A stretch of DNA of 64,000 bases from Deltaproteobacteria bacterium HGW-Deltaproteobacteria-15 (GCA_002840535.1 PHBH01000025.1:1-64000); one strand, 5' to 3'; shown: positions 14,329 to 37,965, counted from the stretch's first letter. The notes: generated by a model not told the origin, from the sequence alone. Numbers and translations: made by a program.

Positions 14329-14356
14329 TTGACAAAGAGTCAAAATGGGATAATCT
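14329..14356 (+). promoter_or_regulatory. sigma-70-type promoter of operon 1
   Basis: TTGACA (14329-14334), 16 bp, TAATCT (14351-14356). The conserved CCGCACAA block follows about 12 bp later and is shared with the leader of operon 2, which also has a 16-bp spacer. The transcript start would lie near 14363, leaving a leader of about 170 nt. Confidence 0.65.
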
Positions 14357-14362
14357 ACTTTA

Positions 14363-14462
14363 CACTCCGCACAACGTCGTTCGGAAAAATTTCACATATT
14401 TCAAAGAAGAGATTACGACACAGACGTCTTACTTCCTAAAGGAAGAAGACGTTTTTATTTTG
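14363..14462 (+). ncRNA. leader RNA of operon 1 ending in an intrinsic terminator (candidate attenuator)
   Basis: The terminal hairpin pairs ACGTCTTACTTCC (14424-14436) with GGAAGAAGACGT (14441-14452), one bulged A, then TTTTTATTTT. It lies 70 bp upstream of the first gene. The operon 2 leader has the same order (CCGCACAA near the start, about 60 nt, hairpin core CGTCTT-CTTCC/GGAAG-AGACG, T-run). A terminator inside a 5' leader implies regulated read-through, by riboswitch, protein or small RNA. The ligand is unknown. A 72-codon ORF across it (14310-14528) is probably spurious. Confidence 0.6.
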
Positions 14463-14531
14463 GCGCATCTCCCGGGACAGTTTCTCGAGTCTGCGAACAA
14501 GAGTGCGTCAGATGAGAGGTTTGATTGAGGC

Positions 14532-15038
14532 ATGAGGCGAAAACAGGAGTTCACGCTAGCTTTGTTTTACTGCCGGAATATCCCGGGAAGCACGGAGAAG
14601 GAGAGACAATCCCTGGAAAAGGAATACGGCGGAGCGCTTCGTCTTTTCCCCCTTCCCTGCAGCGGCAGAATGGAACCGCTCCATCTGATGAAGTCCCTCG
14701 AGGAGTTCGCCGATGCGGCTTACCTGATCACCTGTCCTGAAGGAGGTTGCAGGTATTCCGAGGGCAATACCAGGGCATCGAAGAGGGTGGCCAGGGCAGG
14801 TCTGATCCTGGCGGACATCGGCCTGGAGAAGGAGCGGATCGGAATCATAGCAAATACCCTGGGGAATCCCAGGCCTCTCGCCGCGCTTGCGAAAGAGATC
14901 ATGGAAAAGGCGGCGCGGCTCGGGCCTTCACCGGTATTTCATCCGGGGGTTCGTGGGAAAAAGGCGAGGGTTCGGAAGAGCCGGGATGCCGGCCCCATCA
15001 GGCAGGCGCTGAATGCACCCCTTGATGGGCTGAGATGA
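14532..15038 (+). CDS. MvhD-family [2Fe-2S] electron-transfer subunit, copy 1 (divergent)
   Basis: This 168-aa protein of the MvhD (F420-nonreducing hydrogenase iron-sulfur subunit) family carries electrons to HdrA in soluble complexes. It keeps LPCSGRM, CPEGGCRYSEGN and the downstream basic helix. The N-terminal CxxC is reduced to a single Cys (FYCRNIPG), so one of five family cysteines is missing. The C terminus has an extra Lys/Arg-rich tail of about 40 residues. It is the first gene of operon 1, 30 bp before metV. Reduced cysteines suggest a modified cluster or a structural role. Confidence 0.85.
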   Translation: MRRKQEFTLALFYCRNIPGSTEKERQSLEKEYGGALRLFPLPCSGRMEPLHLMKSLEEFADAAYLITCPEGGCRYSEGNTRASKRVARAGLILADIGLEKERIGIIANTLGNPRPLAALAKEIMEKAARLGPSPVFHPGVRGKKARVRKSRDAGPIRQALNAPLDGLR

Positions 15039-15067
15039 AACGCTAGAAAGGCACCAACGGAGTAGAG

Positions 15068-15736
15068 ATGATCACTGCAGAACAAAAGCCTATGGAAGAG
15101 ATCAGGGAGTCGATTGCTCCCTTTAAACGGGTTCTCGTGCTGGGATGCAATTCCTGTGTGGCCGAATGCGCGGCAGGAGGAGAAAAGGAGGCGGGGATGC
15201 TCGCGTCGGCTCTCCGATTGGCCGCAAGGATGGGCGGGAAAGATACGCTCATTCATGAAAAAAGTCTCGACCGCCAGTGTGTCAAGGAGTTCGTGATCCA
15301 GGTCGATGAGTTCGTGAATGAATATGACGTCATCCTTTCCATGGCCTGTGGTGCGGGTGTGCAGGCGGTCGGAGACATGTACCCGGAGATCCCGGTCATT
15401 CCGGCATTGAACACAGAATTCCTGGGCGAGACCAGAGACCAGGGTCTTTGGGTGGAAAACTGCCTGGGCTGCGGGGATTGCATGCTGGCTCAGTTCGGCG
15501 GCGTTTGCCCCCTGGCCCGATGCTCCAAGCAGCTCCTGAACGGGCCCTGCGGCGGCTCCAGGAACGGGATCTGTGAAATCAGGCCGGACGTGCCGTGCGC
15601 CTGGCAGGAGATCATCAACAGGCTGGAGAAATTCGGCGGTTTGGACCGGCTGGAACGGATCGTGCCCCCCAAGAACTGGTCCAGGAAGAATGGGGGAGGA
15701 CCGAGGAGCATCGTGCGGGAGGATCAGAAGAGGTGA
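15068..15736 (+). CDS. metV: MetV-like methylenetetrahydrofolate reductase C-terminal domain protein, copy 1
   Basis: This 222-aa protein of the MTHFR_C family is the partner of short MetF in acetogens. It shows a P-loop-like N terminus with Cys pairs (LGCNSCVAECAAGGEKE) and a central FxAxGxG-like segment (SMACGAGVQAVGD). A C-terminal Cys cluster (CLGCGDCM, CPLARCSK, GPCGGS, GICE) can bind Fe-S or zinc. In Moorella-type systems MetFV docks on HdrABC-MvhD. The stop lies 6 bp before the metF start, and the ATG at 15068 is preceded by an AACGGAGTAG ribosome site. Confidence 0.9.
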   Translation: MITAEQKPMEEIRESIAPFKRVLVLGCNSCVAECAAGGEKEAGMLASALRLAARMGGKDTLIHEKSLDRQCVKEFVIQVDEFVNEYDVILSMACGAGVQAVGDMYPEIPVIPALNTEFLGETRDQGLWVENCLGCGDCMLAQFGGVCPLARCSKQLLNGPCGGSRNGICEIRPDVPCAWQEIINRLEKFGGLDRLERIVPPKNWSRKNGGGPRSIVREDQKR

Positions 15737-15741
15737 AAGAG

Positions 15742-16653
15742 ATGAGTCGGTTGAAAGCAGTACTCGAAAAAGGCGGTTTTGCGGTCACCGCGGAATGCGG
15801 GCCACCGAAGGGCGCGGATCCGGATACGGTGCTTCGAAAAGGCCAACTGTTAAATGGAAAGGTGGATGCGGTCAATGTGACGGACAACCAGACCGCAATC
15901 GTCCGGATGTCGAGTCTGGCTGCCTGCACCCTCCTGAAGTCAGCCGGCATGGACCCGGTTCTTCAGGTGGTGGTGAGGGACAGGAACAGGATTGCCCTTC
16001 AATCGGACATCCTGGGTGCATCGGCCCTGGGGATCAGGAACGTGCTCTGTCTTTCAGGAGACCATCAGAGCTTCGGAAACCAGCCGCAGGCCATGGGTGT
16101 CTTTGACCTGGACTCGATCCAGTTCGTTCAGACGGTCAGGTCCATGAGGGACCAGGGCCTGGTCCTCGGAGGAGACAAACTGAGCAGGGGGCCGGATGTG
16201 TTCATCGGCGCGGCCGCGAATCCTTTTGCGGACCCCATGGCGTTCCGGGCCGTCCGGCTCGCCAAGAAGATTGCCGCAGGTGCAGAGTTCATCCAGACAC
16301 AATGCATCTACAATCTGGAGAGATTCGAAACCTGGATGGGACTGGTCAGAGATCGGGGCCTGCATGAGAAGGCGTTTATCCTGGGCGGGGTGACCCCGCT
16401 CAAATCCGCCAAAATGGCCAAGTACATGAGAGACAAGGTCTCGGGCATGGATATCCCGGATCAGGTCATCGAGCGGATGGAAAAGGTTCCTCCCGGAAAA
16501 CAGAGGGAGGAGGGAATCAGGATTTGTGTGGAGACGGTCGAGAGGCTGAAGGAGATGCCCGGGGTGAAAGGGGTGCACATCATGGCCATCGAGTGGGAAG
16601 ATGCGGTAGGGGAGATCGTAGAAAAGGCAGGGCTGCTGCCGAGACCGTCATGA
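15742..16653 (+). CDS. metF: 5,10-methylenetetrahydrofolate reductase, MetF family, copy 1
   Basis: This 303-aa TIM-barrel flavoprotein interconverts methylene-H4F and methyl-H4F, the last step of the methyl branch of the Wood-Ljungdahl pathway. The catalytic-Glu region reads TAECGPPKGAD, followed by NVTDNQTA, VVRDRNRIALQSD and LCLSGDHQ, all typical. ATG 15742 follows GAGGTGAAAGAG and gives the family length; an upstream in-frame extension to 15595 overlaps metV and is rejected. With MetV and MvhD it forms the core of operon 1. The electron donor cannot be read from MetF itself. Confidence 0.93.
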   Translation: MSRLKAVLEKGGFAVTAECGPPKGADPDTVLRKGQLLNGKVDAVNVTDNQTAIVRMSSLAACTLLKSAGMDPVLQVVVRDRNRIALQSDILGASALGIRNVLCLSGDHQSFGNQPQAMGVFDLDSIQFVQTVRSMRDQGLVLGGDKLSRGPDVFIGAAANPFADPMAFRAVRLAKKIAAGAEFIQTQCIYNLERFETWMGLVRDRGLHEKAFILGGVTPLKSAKMAKYMRDKVSGMDIPDQVIERMEKVPPGKQREEGIRICVETVERLKEMPGVKGVHIMAIEWEDAVGEIVEKAGLLPRPS

Positions 16654-16668
16654 TGAACATTGAATTGA

Positions 16669-16790
16669 TTGAACCGCGAAGACGCGAAGAGCGCAAGGAA
16701 GAACGAGAGAATTTGTTTTTCAGCTGCCGGGAGCAGCTCCGGCAGCTGAAAAAATCTATTCTTGGCGTACTTGGCGTCTTGGCGGTTGAA
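16669..16790. repeat. palindromic element with 9-bp-periodic arms and 15-bp hairpin
   Basis: The left arm TTGAACCGCGAAGACGCGAA and the right arm ending TTGGCGTCTTGGCGGTTGAA are reverse complements with a 9-bp internal rhythm. They flank a perfect 15-bp stem, TTTTTCAGCTGCCGG (16716-16730) with CCGGCAGCTGAAAAA (16739-16753). The element fills the gap between metF and the next gene of the operon. Confidence 0.65.
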
Positions 16791-16825
16791 GCCGAATCCT
16801 ATTTTGAATCAGTCGGGAAACCGCT

Positions 16826-18208
16826 ATGCAGTCTAAATACGTAATCCATACCAGACCCGTCGCGGCTCGGATGAAGCCCATCACCAAAACAGGCATCATC
16901 GCCTGGGAGGAAGGATGCCTGAAATGCGCCGTGTGCGTGAAGAAACGCTGCGTGTACAAGGTTTATGACAGGCGAGGCCTCGACGCCAGACAGATGCTCG
17001 ACTCCATTGACAATGAATGCATGAATTGCCTGAGGTGTGTTCAGGGGTGTCCAAGGGAGTTGATCCACAAATCCATCAGCCCGGAATTCTCGGAAATGGG
17101 CGATGGTTACTGGACCCCGGAGATCATCTCCAAACTCTGGTACCAGGCGGAGACGGGCAAGATCCCGGTGTCGGGCGCAGGCTATCCGGGCCGTTTCAGC
17201 GGACCCGGCTTCGATACCATGTGGACGGACATGTCCGAAATCGTCCGACCCACGCGAGACGGCATCCACGGGCGTGAATACATCAGCACAGCCATAGACC
17301 TGGGGAAAACCCCTAGTCACCTGGACGCCCGCAGGATGGAGCAGGCGGATCTTCCTTTACTGATCGATATCCCTCTCCCGATCCTGTTGAGGGTTCCCTC
17401 CTTCGGCGCATACGGCAGGAATACCCTGAAGGGCTGGGCCATGGCTGCGAAGCATCTCGGAACCTTCCTGGCCCTGGGAAACACGGATTCGCAGGAGGGG
17501 TTGAGCGGATACCGGTCCTGGTTGATCCCCCAGTCGAGCGTGGAATCCCTGGAGTCCGGCAAAGGCCGGATGAGAAGCAGGATCATGGAGGCGCCGTGGA
17601 CACCGGGAATCACGGAAAAGGATGCGCTGTGCAAAACCAAGTCCCTGGTCTCGATCCGTCTGCCCGTGGCTGATGGAGTGGAGGAAAAGGTAACTTCTTT
17701 AGCGAGGATGGGCATCCCCATCATACACCTGGCTGCAGGCGAGAATGGAGAGTCCGCAGACCGGACGCCGGTCTTTGTGAAGGACGCGGTCCGCAGGTCC
17801 CATCTGGCCCTTCTGGATGCGGGGATGCGGGATGAAGTGACGCTCCTTGCGAGCGGGGGTCTGTCCATGGCGGAGCATGTGGCAAAGACGATCATCTGCG
17901 GCGCCGACGGAGTTTTCGTGGACCTGCCCCTTTTGATTTCCCTTGGCTGCAAAATGTGCCGGCGCTGTACCCGGGGGCTGCCCTGCCCGGCGGATATAGA
18001 AGGCGCGCCTTCTTCGTGGGTGGCGGGGAGAGCGATCAACATGATGGCGGCATGGCACAATCAACTCCTGGAGATGATGGGCGCAATGGGGATTCGGGAT
18101 GTCCGCCGATTGCGCGGAGAGACAGGCAGGGCCATGTTTTTCGAGGACCTGGATGAGGCCACTTTCGGCGATCTGGGAAAGGTGGAGGAGGGGTGTGAGC
18201 TTGAATAG
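16826..18208 (+). CDS. glutamate-synthase-like FMN/Fe-S subunit, alpha-type (divergent), copy 1
   Basis: This 460-aa paralogue of the GltB FMN-binding synthase domain has an N-terminal double ferredoxin region (CLKCAVCVKKRCVY, CMNCLRCVQGCP) at about residues 32-75. The barrel start follows (VSGAGYPGRFSGPGFD, MSEIVRPTRDGIHG) and it ends with a Cys cluster, GCKMCRRCTRGLPCP (about residue 375). The central part is much less conserved than in the following beta subunit, so it may be a non-catalytic or electron-relay partner. It overlaps the beta gene, implying a stoichiometric complex. Confidence 0.85.
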   Translation: MQSKYVIHTRPVAARMKPITKTGIIAWEEGCLKCAVCVKKRCVYKVYDRRGLDARQMLDSIDNECMNCLRCVQGCPRELIHKSISPEFSEMGDGYWTPEIISKLWYQAETGKIPVSGAGYPGRFSGPGFDTMWTDMSEIVRPTRDGIHGREYISTAIDLGKTPSHLDARRMEQADLPLLIDIPLPILLRVPSFGAYGRNTLKGWAMAAKHLGTFLALGNTDSQEGLSGYRSWLIPQSSVESLESGKGRMRSRIMEAPWTPGITEKDALCKTKSLVSIRLPVADGVEEKVTSLARMGIPIIHLAAGENGESADRTPVFVKDAVRRSHLALLDAGMRDEVTLLASGGLSMAEHVAKTIICGADGVFVDLPLLISLGCKMCRRCTRGLPCPADIEGAPSSWVAGRAINMMAAWHNQLLEMMGAMGIRDVRRLRGETGRAMFFEDLDEATFGDLGKVEEGCELE

Positions 18209-19685
18209 GGAGTTAAAAAGGAAGAAAGCCCCGGAAGTCGTCCGTACCCCGTCCCGTTTCCGGAACCCGATTGCCAAGTACCGGATCCACCGCTCGAATG
18301 CCTGCACGGCCTGCGGCAAATGCGTGGAGGTATGCCCTTATGGGGTCCACGAGATCCGAAGAGGGAAAGTATTGACCCGGAATTCCTACCGCTGCGTGGG
18401 ACCCGATTGCCCGACGCCTTGCCACCAGAACTGCCCGGTTCAGGCCCTGGTGCTCAAACCCAATCCGACCTTTCAGACAATGGGTGATTCTCGATGGACC
18501 CCGGACTTGCTGGCCAGTGCCTGGTACATGGCGGAATACGGAAAGACTCCTCCCGGCGGTCTCGAACACAGAATCGGAGGATCGGGAGGAGGTTTCGACA
18601 AGCTGCGAATCATCATGCCGCCGAGGAGAGATGATCTCCCCCACCGGGAAGAGGATGTGGATGTGGGTGTCGAGCTGAACCGGCGGCAGGACCATGCTCA
18701 TCAGGTGAGAATCCAGGTTCCGTTCTACGGCGGCGGCATGTCCTACGGATCGGTGAGCATCACCACCATGCTGAGCAGGATCAAGGCTGCTGCATTGCTC
18801 GGGACCTTCTGCTGCACGGGGGAGGGCGGATACCCGGATGAACTGAAGCCTTACAACGATCATGTGATCACGCAAGTCGCCACTGGATTGTTCGGGGTGC
18901 GGGAGGAGACGATCCAGAGGGTCAGGATCGTGGAGTTCAAATATGCCCAGGGCGCCAAGCCTGGACTCGGAGGCCACCTGCTGGGGGATAAAGTCACGCC
19001 CGGGGTGGCGAGAATGCGCGAGGCTGTGGTGGGCTATCCGCTCTTCTCTCCCTTTCCCTTCCACAGCGTCTACAGCGTGGAGGATCACAAGAAACACGTG
19101 GACTGGATCAAGTCCATCAACCCCAGGGCACTGGTTTCCGTAAAAGTTTCCACACCCACGGATGTGGATATGGTCGCCGTGGGGAGTTACTATGCCGGGG
19201 CCCATATCATCCACCTCGACGGGAGCTACGGCGGGACCGGCGCTGCCCCGGACATTGCCAAGAAGAACATCGCCATGCCGATCGAGTATGCGGTGCCCAA
19301 GGTTCATCGCTTTCTCCAGCAGGAAGGGGTAAGGGACAAGATCACGGTGATTGCCAGCGGAGGGCTCAGGACCCCCCATGACGTGGCCAAGATCATCGCC
19401 CTTGGAGCCGACGGGGTCTGCACGGGGACCGCGGATCTGGTCGCCCTGGAATGCATCCGGTGTCACAATTGCGAGAGCGGCAGGGGATGCGCCAGGGGTA
19501 TAGCCACAACGGATCCGGAACTGTCGAATCTGATCGATCTGGAATGGGGTACCCAAAGGATCGTGAATCTTTTCCTCGGCTGGCGGGCCGAGCTGGTCCG
19601 CATCCTGAAGCGGCTCGGGATGAAGAGCATTCAGGAACTGGTGGGCCGCAGGGATTGCCTGGTGCATTTGGACTACATGAAATGA
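18195..19685 (+). CDS. glutamate-synthase-like FMN/Fe-S subunit, beta-type (canonical), copy 1
   Basis: This protein of about 496 aa has the canonical GltS synthase barrel. It has an N-terminal [4Fe-4S] region (CTACGKCVEVCPYGVH plus CVGPDCPTPC) and FMN/2-oxoglutarate motifs CTGEGGYPDE, QGAKPGLGGHL, VSTPTDVDMVAVG and DGSYGGTGAAP. The Fe-S loop is CIRCHNCESGRGCARG. This is the split, ferredoxin-fused archaeal-type arrangement. The start is a GTG at 18195 or TTG at 18201, both inside the alpha gene behind GGAGGAGGG; an ATG at 18099 is unlikely. It should convert ammonia plus 2-oxoglutarate to glutamate if active in the classic way. Confidence 0.88.
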   Translation: MSLNRELKRKKAPEVVRTPSRFRNPIAKYRIHRSNACTACGKCVEVCPYGVHEIRRGKVLTRNSYRCVGPDCPTPCHQNCPVQALVLKPNPTFQTMGDSRWTPDLLASAWYMAEYGKTPPGGLEHRIGGSGGGFDKLRIIMPPRRDDLPHREEDVDVGVELNRRQDHAHQVRIQVPFYGGGMSYGSVSITTMLSRIKAAALLGTFCCTGEGGYPDELKPYNDHVITQVATGLFGVREETIQRVRIVEFKYAQGAKPGLGGHLLGDKVTPGVARMREAVVGYPLFSPFPFHSVYSVEDHKKHVDWIKSINPRALVSVKVSTPTDVDMVAVGSYYAGAHIIHLDGSYGGTGAAPDIAKKNIAMPIEYAVPKVHRFLQQEGVRDKITVIASGGLRTPHDVAKIIALGADGVCTGTADLVALECIRCHNCESGRGCARGIATTDPELSNLIDLEWGTQRIVNLFLGWRAELVRILKRLGMKSIQELVGRRDCLVHLDYMK

Positions 19686-19691
19686 CGATTC

Positions 19692-19740
19692 AGGATGCAT
19701 GATGCTAGAGCCAGGATTAAGGATGCAAGATTGCAGGGTG
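19692..19740 (+). repeat. degenerate 7-bp tandem array (AGGATGC family)
   Basis: Units read AGGATGC, ATGATGC, TAGAGCC, AGGATTA, AGGATGC, AAGATTG in 7-bp register, starting 7 bp after the stop of the beta-subunit gene. It is one of a set of heptamer arrays in this window. Confidence 0.55.
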
Positions 19741-19754
19741 CCGAATATGAAGAC

Positions 19755-19925
19755 TCTCTCGCAGACTTCGCAGAGATGCCAGGCATTGCTGAAGACATCC
19801 ACAACATGCCGATAGGTGGATCGTGCTCCAAAGGAGCTGAACCTGTCCTGTTTTTTGGCACAAAAAACAGGACAAACATGCCCTCTCTCTTCTGAACTCT
19901 GCGAGCTCGAGCGAAGCGGGCGAGA
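19755..19925. repeat. palindromic element upstream of gamma subunit 1, with 14-bp hairpin
   Basis: A perfect 14-bp stem, TGTCCTGTTTTTTG (19844-19857) with CAAAAAACAGGACA (19861-19874), is nested in arms containing CTCTCTCGCAGACTTCGCAG (left) and a CTCTGCGAGCTC...GCGAGAGG complement (right). A nearly identical hairpin lies at 27375-27408, in the same position upstream of the paralogous gamma gene. Confidence 0.6.
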
Positions 19926-19955
19926 GGCATTCTTCTTCTGAATGTGAAATGAGCT

Positions 19956-22616
19956 ATGAAAACAGATCTGATTAAGAGAGTCATTGAGTCGAGAAGACCG
20001 CTCGTGGAGGATCTCCGTGGGAGACCTACCGCGTCGACAGAGGGAGAAGGGGGATGCGGCGTTACGGGATTTGCCTGCAGCATCCCGGTCAGGGGCAAGC
20101 ACATATTCGAACCTTCACGGCAGATGCATAACCGGGGAAACGGGCGCGGGGGCGGCATTGCGGCAATGGGATTCGATCACCGCATGCTGGGCGTATCCAA
20201 GGATGCGCTGGAGGAGGATTACTGCCTCCAGGTAGCTGTCCTGCAAGAAGGGATCATCGATGAAGTGAAGAACCAGTTCATCACCCCTTTTCTCCAGGTA
20301 GACTTCTCGGAGGAGATCCCCCACATCGACGATTACAGGGACATCCATGGGCTTGAGGTAAGGCCTCCTGACGTGCACCGTTATTTTGTCAGGGTCAAGC
20401 CGGACATCCTGGAGTCCTTCACACGCAGGAATGGTCTGTCCGGCCTCACTCAGCGACAGGCCGAAGACGAGTTCATCTATCAGAACACCTACAAGCTCAA
20501 TAAAACCTTCTACGACGCCTACGGCAGCCAGAGGGCGTTTGTGCTCTCCCACGGCAGGAACTTCTTTATCCTGAAGATTGTGGGGTATGCTGAACAGGTG
20601 GTGCAGTACTACCAGCTGGACGACTTCAAGGCCCACATCTGGATCGCACACCAGCGCTACCCGACCAAGGGAAGGGTCTGGCATCCGGCAGGGGCCCATC
20701 CGTTCATCGGCCTCAATGAGGCCCTGGTGCACAACGGCGATTTCGCCAACTATCACACAGTGGCGGAATACCTGAGACAGAGGAACATCCACCCCCTCTT
20801 TCTTACGGACACCGAGGTGTCTGCCCTTCTTTTCGATCTCTACAGCCGGACCTACGGCTACCCGCTCGAGCATGTGATCGAGGCCCTGGCGCCAACCATG
20901 GAGAGGGACTTCAACCGGCTCCCTTCTGAAAAGCAGAAACTCTACCGGGCTATCCAGGCCACCCATATTCATGGTTCTCCTGACGGTCCCTGGTTCTTTA
21001 TCATTGCCAGGAACGATACGGAAAATGGGAAACTCCAGCTCATCGGCATCACCGATACGGCCATGCTGCGGCCCCAGGTTTTCGCGCTTCACGAGGGCCA
21101 GGTGCAACTGGGTCTCATCTGCTCGGAAAAACAGGCCATCGATGCGACTCTCAGAAGCCTCTCGGATGAGGATCCCAGGTTCGGGACCGTGGCGGACCGC
21201 TACTGGAACGCACGGGGCGGGAGCCATACGGACGGGGGAGCATTCATCTTCAACCTGGAGGAGAAAGAAAAGGGAGGGCTCGAGAGAACCCTTTCCTGCA
21301 CGGACAAGTTCGGCAAGGAGATTCGGGTAAGAGGCGACCAGGCCGCCTACCTCCCCGGCAGCGTGTATTATCGATTGGAGAATGAAGGAAAAGCACGGTT
21401 CGATATCTCGGGAATATTCGAGCTGCAGCGCTCGGACCTCCTCTTTGAATACGTGAAGGAAAGACTCAAAGAATGGGACTATTCGGATCTTATGGACTGC
21501 ATGAGGGATGTTCGAAGGTATGCATTGAGGGGAGATGCCGATTTCGAAGTGGCGCTCTCGGCCCTTACCCGACTCCTGGATCTCCGCTACCCGACATTTG
21601 ACAAAAAGAGGCGGTCCATCCTGCAGATCCTCTCCCGGACCCTGGATACCATATTCCGCCATTTCGCCACGCTCGAAAACGATTCCGGAAAGGGGTCCTA
21701 CAGGCTCATCGATTGGGAGAGCAGGCAGTTTTTCAGGGGGCCTTCTTATCAGGAAAAGGTTTTGGTCATAGACGCCTCACTGTTCCCTCCGGAAGGGGAC
21801 AATTGTGACAGCCGGCTCATGGCCGAGGCATTTCTCAGGGGGTGGCGGCGGTTTATTGTTTTCGGATTGAAAGGGCAGCGGTTTCATGGATGCGGTCTGG
21901 GCCCGGATACTGCCGGCGTGAAGATCGATATCTATGGGAGCTCGGGCGACTACCTCGCATCCGGCATCGACGGCCTTTCCATCACCGTCCACGGAAACGC
22001 ACAGGACCAGCTCGGCCAGGTTATGAAATCGGGAAAGCTCGTGGTGTATGGTGACGTGGGCCAGACCTTCCTCTACGGCGCAAAGGGTGGTGAGGTCTAT
22101 GTCATGGGCAATGGAGCGGGGAGACCGCTCATCAATGCAGTGGGGAGGCCTCGGGTAATCATCAACGGCACCTGCCTGGACTATCTTGCCGAGTCATTCA
22201 TGGCCGGAGATCCTCTCAATGGGGGCGGGTTCGTGATCCTGAACGGCCTTCAGTTCGATGAGGATGGAAAAGCGATTCCTCAGACAACTCCCTACCCCGG
22301 ATCCAATCTCTTCTCGCTCGCATCCGGAGGCGCCATCTACGTCCGCGATCCTTTCAAACAGGTAGAGGAGGAGCAGCTCAACGGCGGAGAAATCGTTCCG
22401 CTTTCTGAAAAGGACTGGGACCTGATCCGGCCATATCTTGAGGAAAACGAGAGGCTGTTCGGAATTTCAATTGAAAAGGATCTCCTGACCGTGGATTGCC
22501 TTCAAAAGAGCCCGCTTGAGGTCTACGTCAAAGTGAAGCCCGGCGCCAAGGCGCATCTCACCGAAGAGAGTCTGGAAGAGTGGATTGAGAGAGAGTCTGT
22601 GGCAGGGAGGGGCTGA
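19956..22616 (+). CDS. glutamate-synthase-like gamma subunit: class II glutamine amidotransferase fused to GXGXG domain, copy 1
   Basis: An 886-aa fusion. The amidotransferase half (about residues 33-430) starts at GGCGVTGFAC, with Cys34 where mature GltB has Cys1. It keeps RYPTKGRVWHPAG and NEALVHNGDFANY for glutamine binding and HGSPDGPWFFI. The GXGXG beta-helix (about residues 645-770) contains GSSGDYLASG, VHGNAQDQLG and YGAKGGEVYVMG. In GltS the N-terminal Cys must be free, so cleavage of the 33-residue leader would be needed for glutaminase activity. With alpha and beta it supplies all GltB functions, split over three chains. Confidence 0.9.
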   Translation: MKTDLIKRVIESRRPLVEDLRGRPTASTEGEGGCGVTGFACSIPVRGKHIFEPSRQMHNRGNGRGGGIAAMGFDHRMLGVSKDALEEDYCLQVAVLQEGIIDEVKNQFITPFLQVDFSEEIPHIDDYRDIHGLEVRPPDVHRYFVRVKPDILESFTRRNGLSGLTQRQAEDEFIYQNTYKLNKTFYDAYGSQRAFVLSHGRNFFILKIVGYAEQVVQYYQLDDFKAHIWIAHQRYPTKGRVWHPAGAHPFIGLNEALVHNGDFANYHTVAEYLRQRNIHPLFLTDTEVSALLFDLYSRTYGYPLEHVIEALAPTMERDFNRLPSEKQKLYRAIQATHIHGSPDGPWFFIIARNDTENGKLQLIGITDTAMLRPQVFALHEGQVQLGLICSEKQAIDATLRSLSDEDPRFGTVADRYWNARGGSHTDGGAFIFNLEEKEKGGLERTLSCTDKFGKEIRVRGDQAAYLPGSVYYRLENEGKARFDISGIFELQRSDLLFEYVKERLKEWDYSDLMDCMRDVRRYALRGDADFEVALSALTRLLDLRYPTFDKKRRSILQILSRTLDTIFRHFATLENDSGKGSYRLIDWESRQFFRGPSYQEKVLVIDASLFPPEGDNCDSRLMAEAFLRGWRRFIVFGLKGQRFHGCGLGPDTAGVKIDIYGSSGDYLASGIDGLSITVHGNAQDQLGQVMKSGKLVVYGDVGQTFLYGAKGGEVYVMGNGAGRPLINAVGRPRVIINGTCLDYLAESFMAGDPLNGGGFVILNGLQFDEDGKAIPQTTPYPGSNLFSLASGGAIYVRDPFKQVEEEQLNGGEIVPLSEKDWDLIRPYLEENERLFGISIEKDLLTVDCLQKSPLEVYVKVKPGAKAHLTEESLEEWIERESVAGRG

Positions 22617-24316: not shown

Positions 24317-24318
24317 CC

Positions 24319-30167: not shown

Positions 30168-30176
30168 GAGAAGAAA

Positions 30177-30204: not shown

Positions 30205-30217
30205 AAACCGAAGCTCG

Positions 30218-30330: not shown

Positions 30331-30488
30331 GCGCTCCGCCCTTCCGTCATTCCGTGCAAACCGGAATCCAGGGTTTTGGTTTTTGGGGTGTGGGCATAGA
30401 CGGAGCTGGAGAGACGCTGGAGCGTCCAGGCCATGCATTCCCACGCTGGAGCGTGGGAACGATGAGAAAAAGTTTGAGTCTTCTTTCC

Positions 30489-30516
30489 TGAACACTGAAC
30501 GCTGAACCCTGAACAC
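30489..30516 (+). repeat. 7-bp tandem array (TGAACAC x4), inverted partner
   Basis: The units TGAACAC, TGAACGC, TGAACCC, TGAACAC are the reverse complement of the GTGTTCA array at 30177-30204. It ends 19 bp before the hdrC start. Confidence 0.75.
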
Positions 30517-30535
30517 TTCCATACGAAGGATGGTC

Positions 30536-31096
30536 ATGAACAACACGCTTGAATGGAACCACGACACTCTGCTTCGTGATGTGGAACGTCGAAGCGGGTC
30601 CCCTGTGAGCGCATGTTTGCAGTGCCACAAATGCTCGTCCGGGTGCCCTGTCGCTCCAGACATGGACCTGCTGCCGAGCCAGGTGATGCGGCTGATTCAT
30701 CTGGGTGCGGAAGATGAGGTGCTGGGATCCAAGGCCATTTGGGCCTGCGCCTCCTGTGAGGCGTGCACCTCCCGCTGTCCCATGGGAATCGACGTTGCCG
30801 CGGTTATGGATAGTTTGAGAATGACGGCAGTTGAACGAAAGGCCGCCCTCGGGGACTCTCGCGGCAACTGTTTCAACAAGGCCCTGCTGACCAGCGTCCG
30901 CTGGCACGGCCGGGTCTTCGAACTGGGCCTCATGGCCATGTACAAGATCGCATCCCGCGACCTGTTCGCCGACATGGACAAGATGCCCAGAATGCTCTCG
31001 AAGCATAAGCTGTCCTTCCTGCCCCACTTCTCGCGGAGCGTCAAGGACGTGAGAAAGATATTCAGGAGAGCCGAAGAGGAGGAAGAGAAACGATGA
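30536..31096 (+). CDS. hdrC: heterodisulfide reductase subunit C-like protein
   Basis: A 186-aa HdrC with two [4Fe-4S] motifs, CLQCHKCSSGCPV (about residue 25) and CASCEACTSRCPM (about residue 70). A helical, basic C terminus (FRRAEEEEEKR) follows. HdrC relays electrons between HdrA and HdrB in a soluble complex. Start is ATG 30536 (GAAGG upstream) or ATG 30530 two codons earlier. It overlaps hdrB by 4 bp. The gene is in operon 2 only; operon 1 has no HdrABC. Confidence 0.92.
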   Translation: MNNTLEWNHDTLLRDVERRSGSPVSACLQCHKCSSGCPVAPDMDLLPSQVMRLIHLGAEDEVLGSKAIWACASCEACTSRCPMGIDVAAVMDSLRMTAVERKAALGDSRGNCFNKALLTSVRWHGRVFELGLMAMYKIASRDLFADMDKMPRMLSKHKLSFLPHFSRSVKDVRKIFRRAEEEEEKR

Positions 31097-31989
31097 ATTA
31101 TGCCTTCTTTCCCGGGTGCAGTCTCGAGTCCACCGCATGGGACTACGACCGGTCTACCCGTGGGGTGTGCGAGGCCCTGGATATCGAGCTGACGGATATC
31201 CCCGACTGGGTGTGCTGCGGCTCCACCCCGGCTCACGCCAGCAACGGCTCCCTGGCCGTGGCCTTGCCCGTGCTCAATCTTCAGAAGGCCCGGGCCGCCG
31301 GTTTCCCGGAGGTGCTTGCGGCCTGTGCATCGTGCTATGCACGACTGCGTTCGGCCAATCACAAGGTATGCAACGACCCCATGGAGCGGGAACGTGCCCG
31401 ACGAGTCACCGAGAATACCTACGACGGGGACGTGAGGGTGCGCCACATTCTGGACGTGCTCTTCAATGATGTGGGCGTGAAAGAAATCCGGAAACGGATC
31501 CGGTCTCCCTTGGAGGGTTTGCGGGTCGCTTCCTATTATGGCTGCCTTCTCTCCCGGCCGCGGGAGGTTGTGGCCTTTGACGATGCCGAACACCCCACGT
31601 GCATGGATGAACTGGTGAAGGCAACAGGCGCGATGGCGGTCGACTGGCCTTACAAGACCGAGTGTTGCGGCGCGAGTCTTTCCATCAGCAGGACGGCGGT
31701 CGTGAACCGGCTGGGCTACCGGCTTTTGTCCATGGCCCATAGGGCCGGCGCAGAGTGCATCGTGGTCGCCTGTTCCCTCTGCCAGCTGAACCTGGACTTC
31801 CGCCAGCCGGAGGCCAGGAAAAACCAGAACCCCATCCCCGACCTGCCGGTGCTCTATATCACTCAGCTCTTGGGGTTGGCCCTGGGACTTCCGTCGAAAG
31901 AGCTCGGTCTGGACGGACTGACCGTCAGTGCGGAGCCCGTGTCGGCCAGACGCGCGGCGGCAGGTTCGATCAGGGGCGGAAGGCAATGA
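31093..31989 (+). CDS. hdrB: heterodisulfide reductase subunit B-like protein
   Basis: A 298-aa HdrB with two cysteine-rich CCG domains. The first has PGCSLES, VCCGSTPAH and ACASCYARL; the second has YYGCLLSRP, ECCGASLSI and ACSLCQLN. In methanogens these bind two non-cubane [4Fe-4S] clusters that reduce a disulfide; in bacteria without CoM-S-S-CoB the partner may be another acceptor such as MetFV. It overlaps hdrC and hdrA by 4 bp each. Confidence 0.93.
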   Translation: MNYAFFPGCSLESTAWDYDRSTRGVCEALDIELTDIPDWVCCGSTPAHASNGSLAVALPVLNLQKARAAGFPEVLAACASCYARLRSANHKVCNDPMERERARRVTENTYDGDVRVRHILDVLFNDVGVKEIRKRIRSPLEGLRVASYYGCLLSRPREVVAFDDAEHPTCMDELVKATGAMAVDWPYKTECCGASLSISRTAVVNRLGYRLLSMAHRAGAECIVVACSLCQLNLDFRQPEARKNQNPIPDLPVLYITQLLGLALGLPSKELGLDGLTVSAEPVSARRAAAGSIRGGRQ

Positions 31990-34900
31990 AAATGGAAACC
32001 AAAACCCCGTTACTTCACCGGTCCGATACTCAACCCGAGAGCCCCTGCGGCGCTGTCCTCGTTTGCGGGGCGGGCGTTGCAGGTATTCAGGCATCCATCG
32101 ATCTTTCCTCCGCCGGCTTTCGCGTTTACCTGGTCGAAGGGAAAGCGGCCATAGGCGGCGGGATGGCCCGCCTGGACAAGACCTTCCCCACCGGCGACTG
32201 CGCCACCTGCATCCTTTCGCCCAAGCTGGTCGAGTGCATGCGCGACCCCAATATCGATGTGTACACCCTGGCCGATGTCGTCAAGCTCGAAGGGGTGCCC
32301 GGCCATTTCAAGGCTACGATTCTCCAACGGCCCAGGTATGTCGAGCTCGAGAAATGTACGGCCTGCGGCGACTGTTCCGCGGCATGTCCCATCGAAGTCC
32401 CGAGTGCATTCGACGCGCAGCTTGGGACCCGCAAGGCCATCGACCGGGTTTACGCCCAGGCCGCTCCGAACGCACCGGTGATTCAGAAGCGCGGCCGTGC
32501 GGAGTGCAGCTCCGGGTGTCCCATCGACACGAGCGTGCAGGCTTACGTAGCCCTTATCGCGGCAGGGAGGTTCGAGGAAGCCGCCGAAGTCATCAGGCGC
32601 GAGAACCCGCTTCCTTCCGTGTGCGGCCGCGTCTGCTTTCATCCATGCGAACGCAGGTGCAATCGGGGGGTCCTGGACGAGCCGATCAACATTCGCGGGC
32701 TCAAACGGTTTGCAATCGACCGGTTCCCCACACTTCCCCCGCATGAGGAGGTCCCGCCCACGGGAAAACCGGTCGCCGTCATCGGCTCCGGGCCTGCGGG
32801 GCTGAGCGCAGCCCACTTCCTTGCCCTTGCGGGCCACGCAGTGCGCGTCTTCGAGTCCCTGCCCGTGCTCGGCGGGATGCTCTCCGTCGGGATCCCCGAC
32901 TACCGCCTCCCTCCGGAAATCCTGGAACGGGACCTGGCCGGCATACGTGCGCTGGGCGTGGATTTCAGGACGGGCACGGCTGTCGGCAGGGATATTTCAG
33001 CGGAAGAGATTGGAGACGGATTTGACGCCGTGTTCATTGCGGTTGGCGCCCATATGGGCCGAAAACTCGGAATCCCCGGAGAGGAAAGCCGGGGCGTGAT
33101 CCATGGAATCGACTTCCTCCGCAAGCACAGCCTTGGGCAGGAGACAGGGCTCGGGAAGCGCGTCGTCATCGTGGGGGGCGGCAATACGGCGATCGACGCC
33201 GCGAGAACCGCGCTTCGCCTGGGGGCATCGAAAGTCATGATCCTCTACCGGCGCACCCGCGAAGAAATGCCGGCGGATTTTTCAGAAGTCGAGGCTGCCC
33301 TTGAGGAGGGCGTCGAAATCCAGTTCCTGGCAGCGCCCCTCAATGTCTTGGCCCGGAACGGATCCATGACCGGTATCGAGTGCATCCGCATGGGGCTGGG
33401 AGAGCCCGACTCGAGCGGGCGTCCGCGTCCCGTACCGGTCGACGGATCGGAGTTCACCTTGGCGGCCGACACCCTGATCCCCGCGGTCAGCCAATCGGCC
33501 GATCTCAGGCTGGCCGAACAACTCGGGCTCGAAACCACCCGCTGGTCCACCATCGTTGCAGACGAACTGACCCTGGCCACTTCCCGGCCGGGCGTATTCG
33601 CGGGAGGAGATGTGGTGCTCGGCCCCTCGAGTGTCATCGACGCCATCGCACAAGGCAAGCGAGCCGCAAGGGGAATCGACAATTATCTCGCGGGCAGGCC
33701 GCTCGATCTCGGCCTGGAAAAGCCTGAAAAGCGCGACAATCCCCTTTCAGAACCGGAGCTCAAGAAACTGAGGGAGAAGACGCAACCCGCTCGACGTTTG
33801 CCGCAGGCGGAACAGCCGGTAATGCAGCGGTTGAAGGATTTTCGTGAGGTCGAACAAACCTATTCGTCTGAAGAAGCCCGTCAGGAAGCGCAACGGTGCC
33901 TGAATTGCGGGCTGTGCTCCGAATGCATGTGCTGCGTCAAGGCCTGCAAGGCAGGGGCCGTTCAGCACAATCAGGCGACGAAGACGATCGATCTGGAGAT
34001 AGGGGCCGTGGTGCTCACCCCCGGTTTTGAAGCATTCGATGCGGCCCGACGCGGCGAATTCGGCTTTTGTCATGCCCGGAATGTGGTCACCAATGTTCAA
34101 TTCGAGCGGATTCTCTCGGCGTCCGGTCCTACCAGGGGCCGCATTGTCCGGCCTTCGGACGGAAAGACCCCCAGGCGCATCGCTTTCATCCAGTGCGTGG
34201 GGTCTCGAGACACCGGCTGCGGAAACGATTATTGTTCCTCCGTGTGCTGCATGGCCGCAACCAAGGAAGCCGTTCTCGCCAAGGAACACGAACCCGGGCT
34301 GGAGATCTCCATTTTCTTCCTGGATATTCGCGCTTTCGGCAAGGACTTCGATCGTTACTATGAACGGGCGAAAAACGAGAAAGACATACGCTATGTACGA
34401 TCGTTTATTTCACGCACGTACGAGATGCCCGATACGAAGAACCTCCTGCTGAAATACCTGGGTCCGGACCTCAAGCAGGTTGAAGAAGAGTTCGACATGG
34501 TCGTCCTGTCGTTGGGCCTTGAACCGAGCCCTGCTCTGCTGGACCAGGCGGAGCACATCGGGGTCGACCTCAATCCATGGGGCTTTGCAAAGACGTCGGA
34601 ATTGCATCCTCTGGACACGTCGAGACCCGGCGTCTTCGTCGGTGGGGTGTTCCAGGAACCCAAGGATATTCCCGATACCGTGATGCAGGCCAGCGGTGCT
34701 GCTGCCAGAGCGATGGCGCTCCTCGCACCCGCCCGGTCCACACAGATCCGGATCAAGCAATATCCCCCGCAGCGCGATATTACGGATGAGCTTCCTCGCA
34801 TCGGGGTTTTCGTATGTCATTGCGGGAGCAACATCGCTTCGGTCGTCGACGTCGAGCGCGTCGTAGAGCGTGTGAAAGACCTCCCGGGCGTGGTCCATGC

Positions 34901-36536
34901 CGAACACACGGTGTACACCTGCGCCGACGACAGCCAGGCCAGGATAAAGGAAAATATCGCCAAACACCGGCTCAACCGTGTGGTCGTGGCATCGTGCACG
35001 CCTCGCAGCCACGAGCCCATCTTCCGCGATACCCTTCGAGAAGCGGGACTGAACCCCTATCTGCTTGAGATGGCCAATATCCGCGAGCAATGCTCCTGGG
35101 TTCACGCCGGCAACCCCGAACTCGCGACCCAAAAGGCGTTTGAGCTTGCGCGCATGATCGTGGCCCGGGTCGCTGAGTCGCTTCCCCTCAAGGAAGAAAC
35201 GGTGCCTGTTCACAAGGCCGCTCTCGTCGTAGGGGGAGGGATCGCCGGCATGACGGCCGCGCTGGCCCTTGCGGATCAGAGCTTCCCCGTTCATCTGGTG
35301 GAGAAATCACGCTCGTTAGGAGGCACAGCCCGCCGAATCTACCGCACACTGGACGGCGCAGATGTCCAATCGTTTCTGGACAGGACCATGGAGAGGGTTG
35401 TTTCCAATCCCCTCATCTCCGTCCACCTGAATGCCAAAGCCTCGCAAGTGGAAGGGCACATCGGCGCCTTTTCAACGGAGATCGCATCCGGCGAGGAATC
35501 GCTCAAGATCAGGCACGGGGTTATCGTTGTGGCCACCGGCGCCGGCGAACACATACCCCGGACCTATGGCTACGGCCGGAACGAGAAGGTTCTGACACAG
35601 CTGGAATTGTCCGAACGTTTGGGCATGGGCTCGATCGAACTGCCGGACAAGGCAACGGTTGTCATGATTCAGTGCGTGGAGCAGCGCAATGAAGAGCGTC
35701 CTTATTGCAGCAGGGTCTGCTGCACCACAGCGGTAAAGAATGCCCTCCAATTGCGCGAGCGCTACCCCCTTGCACGGATCCTGGTCCTGTATCGTGATAT
35801 GCGGACCTATGGCTTCCGCGAAGCCGCCTTTCGCAAGGCCCGTGAAAAAGGTGTTCTGTTCCTCCGCTATGAGCCCGAACGGCCGCCCGAGCTCGGCACT
35901 GACGGCCGGTTGCGCGTTCACGAGCCGACCCTCGGCAGGCCCATGGAAGTAGTCCCGGACATGCTTGTATTGGCCTCCCCCATGGTGCCCAGGGCCGACA
36001 GGAAAGAACTCTCTGATCTGCTTCGCGTTCCCCTCAATGGGGACGGATTCTTCCTGGAAGCCCATGTGAAGCTGCGGCCCGTCGATTTCGCCAGCGAAGG
36101 TCTCTTCCTGTGCGGCACGGCACACGCTCCAAAAAGCATTGGGGAGACGATCTCTCAGGCCAATGCGGTTGCAGGACGCGCCGCCTCGATTCTTTCCCGC
36201 AAGGCCATCCCCATCAGCGGACAGGTCGCATGGGTCGATCCGGATAAATGCATATCCTGCATGACCTGCGTCCACGTCTGCCCTTATCATGCACCCATGA
36301 TCGGGCGCAACAACAAGGCGGAGATCCAGGCGGCTGTCTGCATGGGATGCGGAAGCTGTACCGCTGAATGTCCCGCCAAGGCTATCCAGCTCAGACATTA
36401 TCTGGACAACCAGATCCTCCGGGCGCTCGATTCCCTCCTTACTGGAATTTCAGCCGAGGAAGTCGTGGAAAGCGAGTATCCCGAGCACGTTGGAATAGCG
36501 CTGCCTCGCTGGCACAAAGGATTGATAACGCTTTAG
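31986..36536 (+). CDS. hdrA: giant HdrA fusion: HdrA / GltD-like NAD(P)H oxidoreductase / second HdrA
   Basis: A 1516-aa flavo-iron-sulfur protein. Order: HdrA FAD motif CGAGVAGIQAS (about residue 24); ferredoxin CTACGDCSAACP (about 124); a GltD-type Cys region and dinucleotide sites VIGSGPAGLSA (about 263) and VVIVGGGNTAIDAA (about 393); resumed HdrA with CLNCGLCSECMCCVKAC (about 638) and IQCVGSRD (about 735). A second HdrA follows with VCHCGSNIASVVDVE (about 941), VVGGGIAGMTA (about 1079) and a C-terminal 2[4Fe-4S] (CISCMTCVHVCP, CMGCGSCTAECP). Bifurcating HdrA usually has about 650 residues. The GltD insert suggests NAD(P)H as donor. ATG 31986; the reading from 31755 overlaps hdrB. Confidence 0.92.
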   Translation: MKMETKTPLLHRSDTQPESPCGAVLVCGAGVAGIQASIDLSSAGFRVYLVEGKAAIGGGMARLDKTFPTGDCATCILSPKLVECMRDPNIDVYTLADVVKLEGVPGHFKATILQRPRYVELEKCTACGDCSAACPIEVPSAFDAQLGTRKAIDRVYAQAAPNAPVIQKRGRAECSSGCPIDTSVQAYVALIAAGRFEEAAEVIRRENPLPSVCGRVCFHPCERRCNRGVLDEPINIRGLKRFAIDRFPTLPPHEEVPPTGKPVAVIGSGPAGLSAAHFLALAGHAVRVFESLPVLGGMLSVGIPDYRLPPEILERDLAGIRALGVDFRTGTAVGRDISAEEIGDGFDAVFIAVGAHMGRKLGIPGEESRGVIHGIDFLRKHSLGQETGLGKRVVIVGGGNTAIDAARTALRLGASKVMILYRRTREEMPADFSEVEAALEEGVEIQFLAAPLNVLARNGSMTGIECIRMGLGEPDSSGRPRPVPVDGSEFTLAADTLIPAVSQSADLRLAEQLGLETTRWSTIVADELTLATSRPGVFAGGDVVLGPSSVIDAIAQGKRAARGIDNYLAGRPLDLGLEKPEKRDNPLSEPELKKLREKTQPARRLPQAEQPVMQRLKDFREVEQTYSSEEARQEAQRCLNCGLCSECMCCVKACKAGAVQHNQATKTIDLEIGAVVLTPGFEAFDAARRGEFGFCHARNVVTNVQFERILSASGPTRGRIVRPSDGKTPRRIAFIQCVGSRDTGCGNDYCSSVCCMAATKEAVLAKEHEPGLEISIFFLDIRAFGKDFDRYYERAKNEKDIRYVRSFISRTYEMPDTKNLLLKYLGPDLKQVEEEFDMVVLSLGLEPSPALLDQAEHIGVDLNPWGFAKTSELHPLDTSRPGVFVGGVFQEPKDIPDTVMQASGAAARAMALLAPARSTQIRIKQYPPQRDITDELPRIGVFVCHCGSNIASVVDVERVVERVKDLPGVVHAEHTVYTCADDSQARIKENIAKHRLNRVVVASCTPRSHEPIFRDTLREAGLNPYLLEMANIREQCSWVHAGNPELATQKAFELARMIVARVAESLPLKEETVPVHKAALVVGGGIAGMTAALALADQSFPVHLVEKSRSLGGTARRIYRTLDGADVQSFLDRTMERVVSNPLISVHLNAKASQVEGHIGAFSTEIASGEESLKIRHGVIVVATGAGEHIPRTYGYGRNEKVLTQLELSERLGMGSIELPDKATVVMIQCVEQRNEERPYCSRVCCTTAVKNALQLRERYPLARILVLYRDMRTYGFREAAFRKAREKGVLFLRYEPERPPELGTDGRLRVHEPTLGRPMEVVPDMLVLASPMVPRADRKELSDLLRVPLNGDGFFLEAHVKLRPVDFASEGLFLCGTAHAPKSIGETISQANAVAGRAASILSRKAIPISGQVAWVDPDKCISCMTCVHVCPYHAPMIGRNNKAEIQAAVCMGCGSCTAECPAKAIQLRHYLDNQILRALDSLLTGISAEEVVESEYPEHVGIALPRWHKGLITL

Positions 36537-36647
36537 CACAGTTGATGAGGTCGGCCATGGGGGTCTTTTTTCAAAAGCGAAAAACTCGGTGGACAGTGTC
36601 TGGCGAAAGTGAAAGTGGCAAAGTCTTACAAGGATTGGAGCTGCATC

Positions 36648-37127
36648 GTGGAGAATAAGCCGGTGATCGTTGCATTCTGTTGCCACTATTGTGCCTATGC
36701 CGCGGCGGATCTCGCCGGGACTATGCGGCTTCAGTATCCTGATTCCGTGCGCATATTGCGGTTGCCCTGCACAGGCAAGATTGAAGTCAATTACCTGCTG
36801 GCCGCCTTCGAGCGCGGGGTGGACGGCGTGATCGTGGCCGGCTGCCTCGAAGGCGGGTGCCATTACCAGGAAGGCAACCTCCGCGCGCGCCGCCGCGTCG
36901 AACGCGCGAAGCAGATGCTCAAGGAAATCGGCCTCGAACCCGAACGCGTCGAGATGTTCAACCTTTCCTCTGCGGAAGGGACCCGCTTCGCCGCAATTGT
37001 TGCGGAGATGAACGAACGAATCGCGCAATTGGGTCCGAGTCCCCTGCGGCGATCCGATGCGGTGAGCTCAGGAGTCACCGCACCAAAATCCCCCCCGACC
37101 CCCCTTTACGAAAGGGGGGAGCTATGA
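36648..37127 (+). CDS. mvhD: MvhD-family [2Fe-2S] electron-transfer subunit, copy 3 (canonical)
   Basis: A 159-aa protein, the most canonical MvhD in the window: FCCHYCAYAAADLAG, LPCTGKIEVNYL and GCLEGGCHYQEGNLRARRR. The start is a GTG at 36648 behind GGAG (36637-36640); a GTG at 36609 is less likely. It follows hdrA as in hydrogenase-Hdr operons and should be the electron entry or exit port of HdrA. Its last about 15 residues (PKSPPTPLYERGEL) are encoded by the first half of a C/G-tract repeat that runs over the stop codon. Confidence 0.9.
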   Translation: MENKPVIVAFCCHYCAYAAADLAGTMRLQYPDSVRILRLPCTGKIEVNYLLAAFERGVDGVIVAGCLEGGCHYQEGNLRARRRVERAKQMLKEIGLEPERVEMFNLSSAEGTRFAAIVAEMNERIAQLGPSPLRRSDAVSSGVTAPKSPPTPLYERGEL

Positions 37128-37194
37128 GACTCCTCTTTACGAAAGGGGGAGCTTTGAAAGTCCCCCTTTGAAAAGGGGGATTCAGGGGGATTTT
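37085..37194. repeat. C/G-tract palindromic repeat over the mvhD 3 stop codon
   Basis: The element opens with AAAATCCCCCCCGACC and closes with its complement GGGGGATTCAGGGGGATTTT. It contains internal hairpins of the CCCCCCTTTACGAAAGGGGGG type. It overlaps the mvhD 3 3' end and lies upstream of metV 2. Such TCCCCC/GGGGGA repeats are familiar dispersed elements in proteobacterial intergenic DNA. Confidence 0.65.
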
Positions 37195-37272
37195 TTCAAG
37201 TTGCCGGCGTGCAGTGAACGTTCCATGGAAGAGCTTCGCGCAGAAGCAGAAAAGTGTCCCGGGAGAAACATC

Positions 37273-37965
37273 ATGATAGTTGCCGATCGAAAAAGCGTGC
37301 CTGAAATCCTTGACATGGTCAAAGACCACCAGCGGGTCCTTCTCGTCGGGTGCGGCACCTGTGTCACTGTCTGTCTGGCCGGCGGCGAGCGCGAGACGGG
37401 TATTCTCGGTTCCGCCCTCCGAATGTCCCTCAAGCTCATCGGACGAGGGTCGGTGACCGTGGACGAGTGCACCATTGAACGCCAGTGCGAAGACGCCTTC
37501 ATCGACGGACTCGCACTTCGTATTAAGGAGCATGACGCCATTTGCTCTTTCGGCTGCGGAGCAGGTGTTCAGGCCCTTGCCGAACGTTTCCCCGGCACGC
37601 CGGTCTATCCGGGGCTCAACACTCAGTTCATCGGCATCCTTGAATCACAAGGAGTCTGGGTTGAGAAATGCGCCGGCTGCGGGGCCTGCCGCCTCGGCGA
37701 ATTCGCCGGCATTTGTCCGCTCACCCGGTGCGCCAAACGGCTTCTCAACGGTCCGTGCGCCGGTTCCCGCGACGGCAAATGTGAAGTCAGTGAAGACATT
37801 GACTGTTGCTGGCAGCTCATCTATGATCGTGCGGCCGCACTCGGTGTTCTCGACCGCTTCGAAGCACTTGCCCGGCCACAGGACTGGTCCACCAGCCTCA
37901 ACGGCGGGCCCCGAAAAGTCGTGCGTGAAGACCAATGCATTGCGGGGCTCGGCCCCAAAGCCTGA
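37273..37965 (+). CDS. metV: MetV-like methylenetetrahydrofolate reductase C-terminal domain protein, copy 2
   Basis: A 230-aa MTHFR_C protein like 15068-15736: VGCGTCVTVCLAGGERE at the start, then SFGCGAGVQALAE and the Cys cluster CAGCGACR, CPLTRCAK, GPCAGS, GKCE. ATG 37273 follows GGGAG with seven bases between; an ATG at 37225 and one at 37168 inside the repeat are alternatives. It closes operon 2 and is the likely partner of MetF 2 (23399), although nine genes apart. Confidence 0.88.
   Translation: MIVADRKSVPEILDMVKDHQRVLLVGCGTCVTVCLAGGERETGILGSALRMSLKLIGRGSVTVDECTIERQCEDAFIDGLALRIKEHDAICSFGCGAGVQALAERFPGTPVYPGLNTQFIGILESQGVWVEKCAGCGACRLGEFAGICPLTRCAKRLLNGPCAGSRDGKCEVSEDIDCCWQLIYDRAAALGVLDRFEALARPQDWSTSLNGGPRKVVREDQCIAGLGPKA

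Follow-up and report, generated by a model that had tools for sequence, protein, structure and literature searches.

Why should a glutamate synthase be encoded together with a methylenetetrahydrofolate reductase? The question is raised by a 64,000-nt stretch of DNA from the anaerobe Deltaproteobacteria bacterium HGW-Deltaproteobacteria-15 (GCA_002840535.1 PHBH01000025.1:1-64000; "the window" hereafter means all of it), in which two operons combine genes for MvhD, MetV and MetF with genes for a glutamate synthase (GltS) split into three subunits, here called alpha, beta and gamma. We propose that the locus encodes a glutamate synthase (GOGAT) of a split, anaerobic type that has an MvhD-MetVF unit of its own as electron input, with electrons drawn most likely from 5-methyltetrahydrofolate (5-methyl-H4F), and judging from gene content, residues and relatives we give this reading a probability of roughly 0.5.

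A predicted split glutamate synthase in two operons

Open reading frames (ORFs) of the window were identified with Pfam. Their content, order and strand bear out both operons as originally predicted. Operon 1 (14532-22616) reads mvhD-metV-metF-alpha-beta-gamma, and operon 2 (22913-37965) reads mvhD-metF-alpha-beta-gamma-hdrC-hdrB-hdrA-mvhD-metV, all genes of both lying on the + strand. The hdrCBA genes are present in operon 2 and absent from operon 1. Operon 1 has no gltD gene, for which reason plain NADPH-GOGAT was set aside; in operon 2 a GltD-like domain is found within HdrA. The genome holds only two GltS flavin mononucleotide (FMN) domains at full strength, both within the window.

These domains belong to beta-1 (18195-19685; start codon approximate, the listed ORF beginning at 18099) and beta-2 (25716-27272), which match PF01645 with E values of 8.7e-92 and 4.8e-85. 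In beta a ferredoxin domain is joined to the FMN domain, and the protein aligns with Azospirillum GltS (2vdc) across the latter, with the QGAKPG motif and the three cysteines of the 3Fe-4S cluster in place and a fourth cysteine added. In pairwise matches beta is about 33-38% identical to GltB versus about 28% to plasmid "FMN-binding glutamate synthase family" proteins. Gamma-1 (19956-22616) and gamma-2 (27522-30167) carry a class II glutamine amidotransferase domain (GATase_6) and a GXGXG domain (PF01493) fused in one protein. Cys34 of gamma is present in 96% of 112 homologues, and R234, N260, G261 and D262 are also kept. With these GltS hallmarks retained, beta and gamma look catalytic.

Alpha is of a different kind. 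Alpha-1 (16826-18208) and alpha-2 (24319-25719) keep eight ferredoxin cysteines and a CxxCxxCx5C motif, match the GltS barrel in their second half only, and in sequence comparison the QGAKPG motif of beta was not seen in them. An AlphaFold2 model of alpha (predicted local distance difference test score, pLDDT, 79) bears a likeness to FMN-type TIM barrels at a low template-modelling (TM) score of about 0.4. Judged by sequence, alpha is not an ordinary glutamate synthase subunit: its 8-Cys ferredoxin domain is followed by a second, diverged copy of the FMN barrel. With the model, it is best read as a putative electron relay, perhaps with flavin bound. The suggestion that the GltS-like subunits had become mere electron modules thus fits alpha only. 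In nine loci alpha and beta are fused into a single protein of about 975-1046 aa (L183, L184, L185, L186, L189, L196 and others). Separately, one locus encodes an additional 540-aa Glu_synthase-like protein upstream of mvhD-alpha-beta-gamma (L100:7601-9220).

The two operons are not recent local tandem duplicates. Alpha-1 and alpha-2 are only 45% identical, and in the alpha tree alpha-2 joins the operon-2-type alpha of a genome from another family, G149, with support of 99 in the SH-like approximate likelihood-ratio test (SH-aLRT). Since the G149 locus has the same gene order as operon 2, the latter is an old variant.

The MvhD-MetVF unit and its conservation

An even sample of 247 Desulfobacterota genomes from 172 genera was searched. 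Alpha is carried by 59 of the genomes (42 of the genera), and the gene order recurs in relatives and across phyla, which rules out chance or a single-genome artefact; the pairing is thus not confined to this genome, a doubt raised with the original prediction. One locus, L063 (PHBD01000061, HGW-Deltaproteobacteria-19), is 100% identical to the window and probably comes from the same organism. At least 548 relatives of alpha exist collection-wide. The best 80 include contigs labelled Nitrospirota, Spirochaetota, Chloroflexota, Latescibacterota, Poribacteria and Abyssobacteria, and many of them have the same gene order (under the labels Nitrospirota, Spirochaetota, Chloroflexota and Abyssobacteria); most are metagenome bins, so that their phylum labels carry a risk of contamination.

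Upstream genes were surveyed at 54 Desulfobacterota alpha loci with at least 2.6 kb of upstream sequence, same-family loci included. On one strand ahead of alpha we found mvhD-metV-metF in 33 loci, mvhD-metV in 6, mvhD alone in 9, mvhD-metF in 1 and none of these in 5, which places mvhD near alpha in 49/54. In the remaining five loci (L191-L195) the gene directly ahead of alpha encodes a protein of 617-650 aa in which a GlcD-like FAD oxidase is joined to a ferredoxin domain with two clusters. A GlcD-like FAD/Fe-S protein in the position of MvhD-MetVF points to swappable electron-donor modules; its substrate is perhaps a 2-hydroxy acid.

Spacing is tight: metV and metF overlap or abut in 93 of 93 pairs, and the gap between metF and alpha has a median of 13 bp and is 30 bp or less in 53 of 89, these gaps being approximate as they run to the first residue matched by the hidden Markov model, with some loci counted twice. 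In genomes of the same family metF lies directly before alpha in 10 of 10 with an alpha locus fetched. The nine operon-1-type loci among them read metV-metF-alpha, preceded by mvhD and followed by beta and gamma as far as the contig extends, and several are flanked by glnA-glnE or carAB. As a separate arrangement, metV follows gamma instead of preceding alpha in L097, L099 and L101, and so does metF where the contig extends.

In the window, the gap between metF-1 and alpha-1 is 173 bp and contains a palindromic hairpin (16716-16753, + strand) with a 16-bp stem of the form CACCTGCCGG-N8-CCGGCAGGTG. It is one of 13 palindromes of this type in the genome, and the idea that it is a unique terminator was dropped for that reason. 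Separate transcription of the GltS-like genes from metF, considered at the outset as a point against a joint system, is countered by spacing in most relatives, where metF and alpha are close; within the window the two are parted by the hairpin.

The residues expected of redox partners are conserved. MvhD-1 (14532-15038; FlpD, E 1.8e-20) resembles the [2Fe-2S] electron-transfer subunit MvhD, in which four cysteines are invariant among 121 homologues, and thirteen cysteines are nearly invariant among 104 homologues of MetV, the iron-sulfur (Fe-S) partner of MetF (metV-1, 15068-15736; PF12225, E 5e-36). MetF-1 (15733-16653; PF02219, E 8e-39), a methylene-H4F reductase flavoprotein, has the folate site intact, E21, D110 and Q190 being kept in operon-1-type MetF. 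Operon 2 opens with mvhD-2 (22913-23386; FlpD, E 3.5e-20) and a diverged metF-2 (23399-24316; PF02219, E 8.8e-26), in whose product the catalytic Asp is replaced by Thr.

This difference extends to other genomes. Among MetFs from GltS operons in which no Hdr genes were detected, 67 of 68 keep the Glu/Asp/Gln triad intact, versus 7 of 12 flagged as Hdr-linked, a flag that is loose, since L065, L096 and L115 probably have a separate GltD-like gene and not HdrA. The lone exception among unflagged operons, L181, has weak Hdr matches nearby. Because the Syntrophorhabdaceae-type loci L095, L112 and L152 combine an intact MetF with Hdr genes, the tie between Hdr presence and triad loss is not strict. 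Read with caution, the pattern suggests selection on the folate chemistry of MetF in operons that encode no electron input besides MetVF, and a relaxation of this selection in operon-2-type and Desulfofervidaceae-type operons.

Of the MetFs linked to GltS, 61 group in a single clade of the MetF tree (SH-aLRT 95), separate from Hdr-linked MetFs, which include other copies from this genome. Smaller GltS-linked lineages lie elsewhere: a clade of seven (Abyssobacteria and Chloroflexota rows), the operon-2 type, Desulfofervidaceae, and L097/L101, whose MetF, encoded after gamma, is thus of a different lineage. Several lineages suggest repeated recruitment of MetF to GltS, with some branches long and their positions unsure.

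CdhC is encoded by 50 of 59 alpha-positive versus 106 of 188 alpha-negative genomes (Fisher p=5e-5, uncorrected for relatedness). Despite this enrichment, some carriers of the metVF arrangement have no CdhC, and a tie of GltS-metVF to the Wood-Ljungdahl pathway alone was ruled out.

Electron donors: the proposed route and its rivals

We infer complex formation, the electron path and the identity of the donor from gene content, residues, synteny, phylogeny and donor swapping. Gamma would free ammonia from glutamine, and beta, with its FMN and Fe-S cluster, would reduce 2-iminoglutarate to glutamate. MetF would exchange electrons with the methyl-H4F/methylene-H4F couple, taking them from 5-methyl-H4F, the presumed donor; these would pass through the MetV clusters to the [2Fe-2S] cluster of MvhD, the ferredoxin domains of alpha and beta and finally the FMN of beta, the Fe-S-rich diverged barrel of alpha probably passing electrons into beta. 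For operon 1 the net reaction would most likely be 5-methyl-H4F + 2-oxoglutarate + glutamine -> 5,10-methylene-H4F + 2 glutamate. The methylene/methyl-H4F couple has a potential of about -200 mV and that of GOGAT is more positive; reaction direction and feasibility are argued from these values.

Cross-phylum synteny, tight spacing, a dedicated MetF clade, active sites kept in both halves and swaps of donor module argue that MetFV/MvhD and glutamate synthase belong to one system. At the genome level this central claim of the original prediction holds up; the physical super-complex that it envisaged is hypothetical. A glutamate synthase fed by methyl-H4F is further supported by the alpha-beta fusions and by glnA, amt, glnD and carAB as neighbours. 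According to PMC9430772, MetVF oxidises methyl-H4F with viologen and, in Sporomusa, binds MvhD and HdrA.

Several observations weigh on the other side. With just mvhD-metV or mvhD ahead of alpha, 15 of 54 loci have no metF adjoining it, which requires a core that can run on a different donor. The carriers of the metVF arrangement that lack CdhC leave the source of methyl-H4F unexplained, the hairpin parts metF-1 from alpha-1, and glutamate-dehydrogenase-family genes are also present in the genome. Ferredoxin could be the donor as well, MetVF enzymes being able to use it in its reduced form (PMC9430772).

A broader proposal, which we hold only tentatively, is that of a modular family of glutamate synthases whose catalytic alpha-beta-gamma core couples to interchangeable donors, in most cases via MvhD, so that one-carbon (C1) oxidation would directly power nitrogen assimilation in anaerobes. 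The donors would be methyl-H4F through MetVF, NAD(P)H through HdrA-GltD with bifurcation to ferredoxin possible, and, where MvhD is missing, a hydroxy-acid-type dehydrogenase.

The second of these donors concerns operon 2. Its hdrC (30530-31096), hdrB (31093-31989, with CCG domains) and hdrA (about 31986-36536; listed ORF P0014 starts further upstream, at 31755) are followed by mvhD-3 (36609-37127; FlpD, E 5.2e-51), a typical Hdr-associated MvhD with MvhD matches in PDB, and metV-2 (37168-37965; PF12225, E 1.5e-33). HdrA, of about 1516 aa, has a GltD-like NAD(P)H domain inserted into it, marked by Fer4_20 and Pyr_redox_2 at about residues 248-634, counted in the listed ORF. This insertion and the loss of Asp from MetF-2 were absent from the original prediction. 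By its gene content operon 2 probably encodes a split glutamate synthase fed by NAD(P)H and Hdr: NAD(P)H electrons would most likely enter through HdrCBA with its GltD-like domain, and MetF-2 would be a relay of non-canonical kind or a structural subunit.

Operon 2 might go further and encode an electron-bifurcating enzyme, HdrA splitting NAD(P)H electrons so that one pair reaches glutamate and the other ferredoxin or a disulfide on HdrB. The GltD-like domain of HdrA, the presence of HdrBC and MvhD, the lost Asp of operon-2-type MetF and the recurrence of the gene order in G149, with related content in G010, all speak for it. We nevertheless regard it as doubtful; it is limited to operon 2 and compatible with methyl-H4F feeding of the synthase.

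The main rival for the donor itself, in our view unlikely, is reduced ferredoxin or another low-potential carrier docking on MetV/MvhD, with MetVF kept either as a scaffold for electron entry or to provide a second outlet, the reduction of methylene-H4F by the same donor. It would be in line with the feeding of MetVF-type reductases by reduced ferredoxin (PMC9430772), with the operons that have metV only or mvhD only, and with the ferredoxin domains of alpha and beta. By itself, however, it does not explain why the folate residues of MetF are kept in nearly all operons without detected Hdr genes.

Quite improbably, the linkage could reflect co-regulation only, MetVF making methyl-H4F for methionine synthesis or C1 balance during nitrogen assimilation, without electron exchange with glutamate synthase. 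The hairpin and the 173-bp gap would agree with this, as would the broad nitrogen cluster of the window, which includes unlinked enzymes such as carAB. But the most constant neighbour is mvhD, encoding an electron-transfer protein, no gene of folate or methionine metabolism was seen in the neighbourhood, and a redox protein, the GlcD-like one, fills the donor position where MvhD-MetVF is missing. An N-methylglutamate-synthase-like enzyme, also entertained originally, would act on methylamine and would fit the split into amidotransferase, GXGXG and FMN parts and the linkage to C1-folate genes. It is very hard to sustain, since MgsABC has separate small subunits for parts that are fused in gamma, beta is nearer to GltB, the neighbours are ammonium-assimilation genes, and none of the scanned ORFs of the window was seen to be an N-methylglutamate-dehydrogenase or methylamine gene.

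Genomic setting and relation to known systems

Both operons are embedded in a nitrogen-assimilation cluster, a setting absent from the original prediction. Genes glnA (8715-10193, +) and glnE (10431-14192, +) precede them, carA (from 38333) and carB (from 39512; together 38333-42775, +) and class II amidotransferases follow, and glnD (59960-62731) and amt (63019) lie farther away. The two amidotransferase proteins (42958-44457 and 49044-50522) have no assigned function; the gene at 42958-44457 stays beside carAB in several relatives. TRAP transporter, LarA-like and GlcD/GlcF-like genes at 52884-59812 probably serve hydroxy-acid uptake and oxidation. Genome-wide, there are 8 metV, 9 MetF-family, 1 CdhC and 3 glutamate-dehydrogenase-family matches, the first two amounting to more C1 redox paralogues than is usual in one genome.

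If our proposal is correct, many anaerobes draw the electrons for glutamate synthesis from C1 units bound to folate and not from NADPH or ferredoxin, a direct link between C1 metabolism and nitrogen assimilation whose reach would be wide: about a quarter of sampled Desulfobacterota genomes carry the core, as do members labelled other phyla. The cross-phylum pairing suggests that C1 units may pay for nitrogen assimilation in these microbes. MetVF would gain a further partner besides Rnf and Hdr, and the awkwardly positive electrons of methyl-H4F oxidation an outlet. Annotations as plain glutamate synthase, MetF or hydrogenase subunits could also be corrected.

No published account of GltS paired with MetF, MetV, MvhD or Hdr was found in the open-access literature, subscription papers and preprints being outside the search. 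Within that literature the enzymes are of known kinds; what appears new is how they are combined, along with donor modules that can be swapped. With GltBD and ferredoxin-dependent GltS the system shares the class II amidotransferase, the FMN/Fe-S synthase domain, the GXGXG domain and matching motifs; it differs in its split subunits, the diverged second FMN barrel, MvhD-MetVF at the donor position and, in operon 1, the missing separate GltD. Like the MetVF-HdrCBA-MvhD methylene-H4F reductase of Moorella and Sporomusa (PMC9430772), the locus brings metF, metV and mvhD together, operon 2 adding HdrCBA; unlike it, glutamate synthase subunits are added, operon 1 is without Hdr and MetF-2 is without the catalytic Asp. 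Acetogen MetVF-RnfC2 and MetVF-type reductases (PMC9430772) likewise pair a MetVF core with varied electron partners, whereas here the partner is glutamate synthase with MvhD. The GltD-like insertion in HdrA with mvhD adjoining, here mvhD-3, matches the arrangement of HdrL from Desulfobacterium autotrophicum (PMC2702500) and of type III HdrA (PMC12054007), to which operon 2 adds a complete split glutamate synthase, metF and metV. Finally, no FrhB domain was found among the window ORFs scanned with Pfam. In the putative F420-dependent glutamate synthases of anaerobic methanotrophic (ANME) archaea (PMC9012536) GltS subunits are also clustered with an alternative electron-donor subunit, but there the donor is FrhB-like (F420H2), and here it would be MvhD-MetVF, HdrA-L or a GlcD-like protein.

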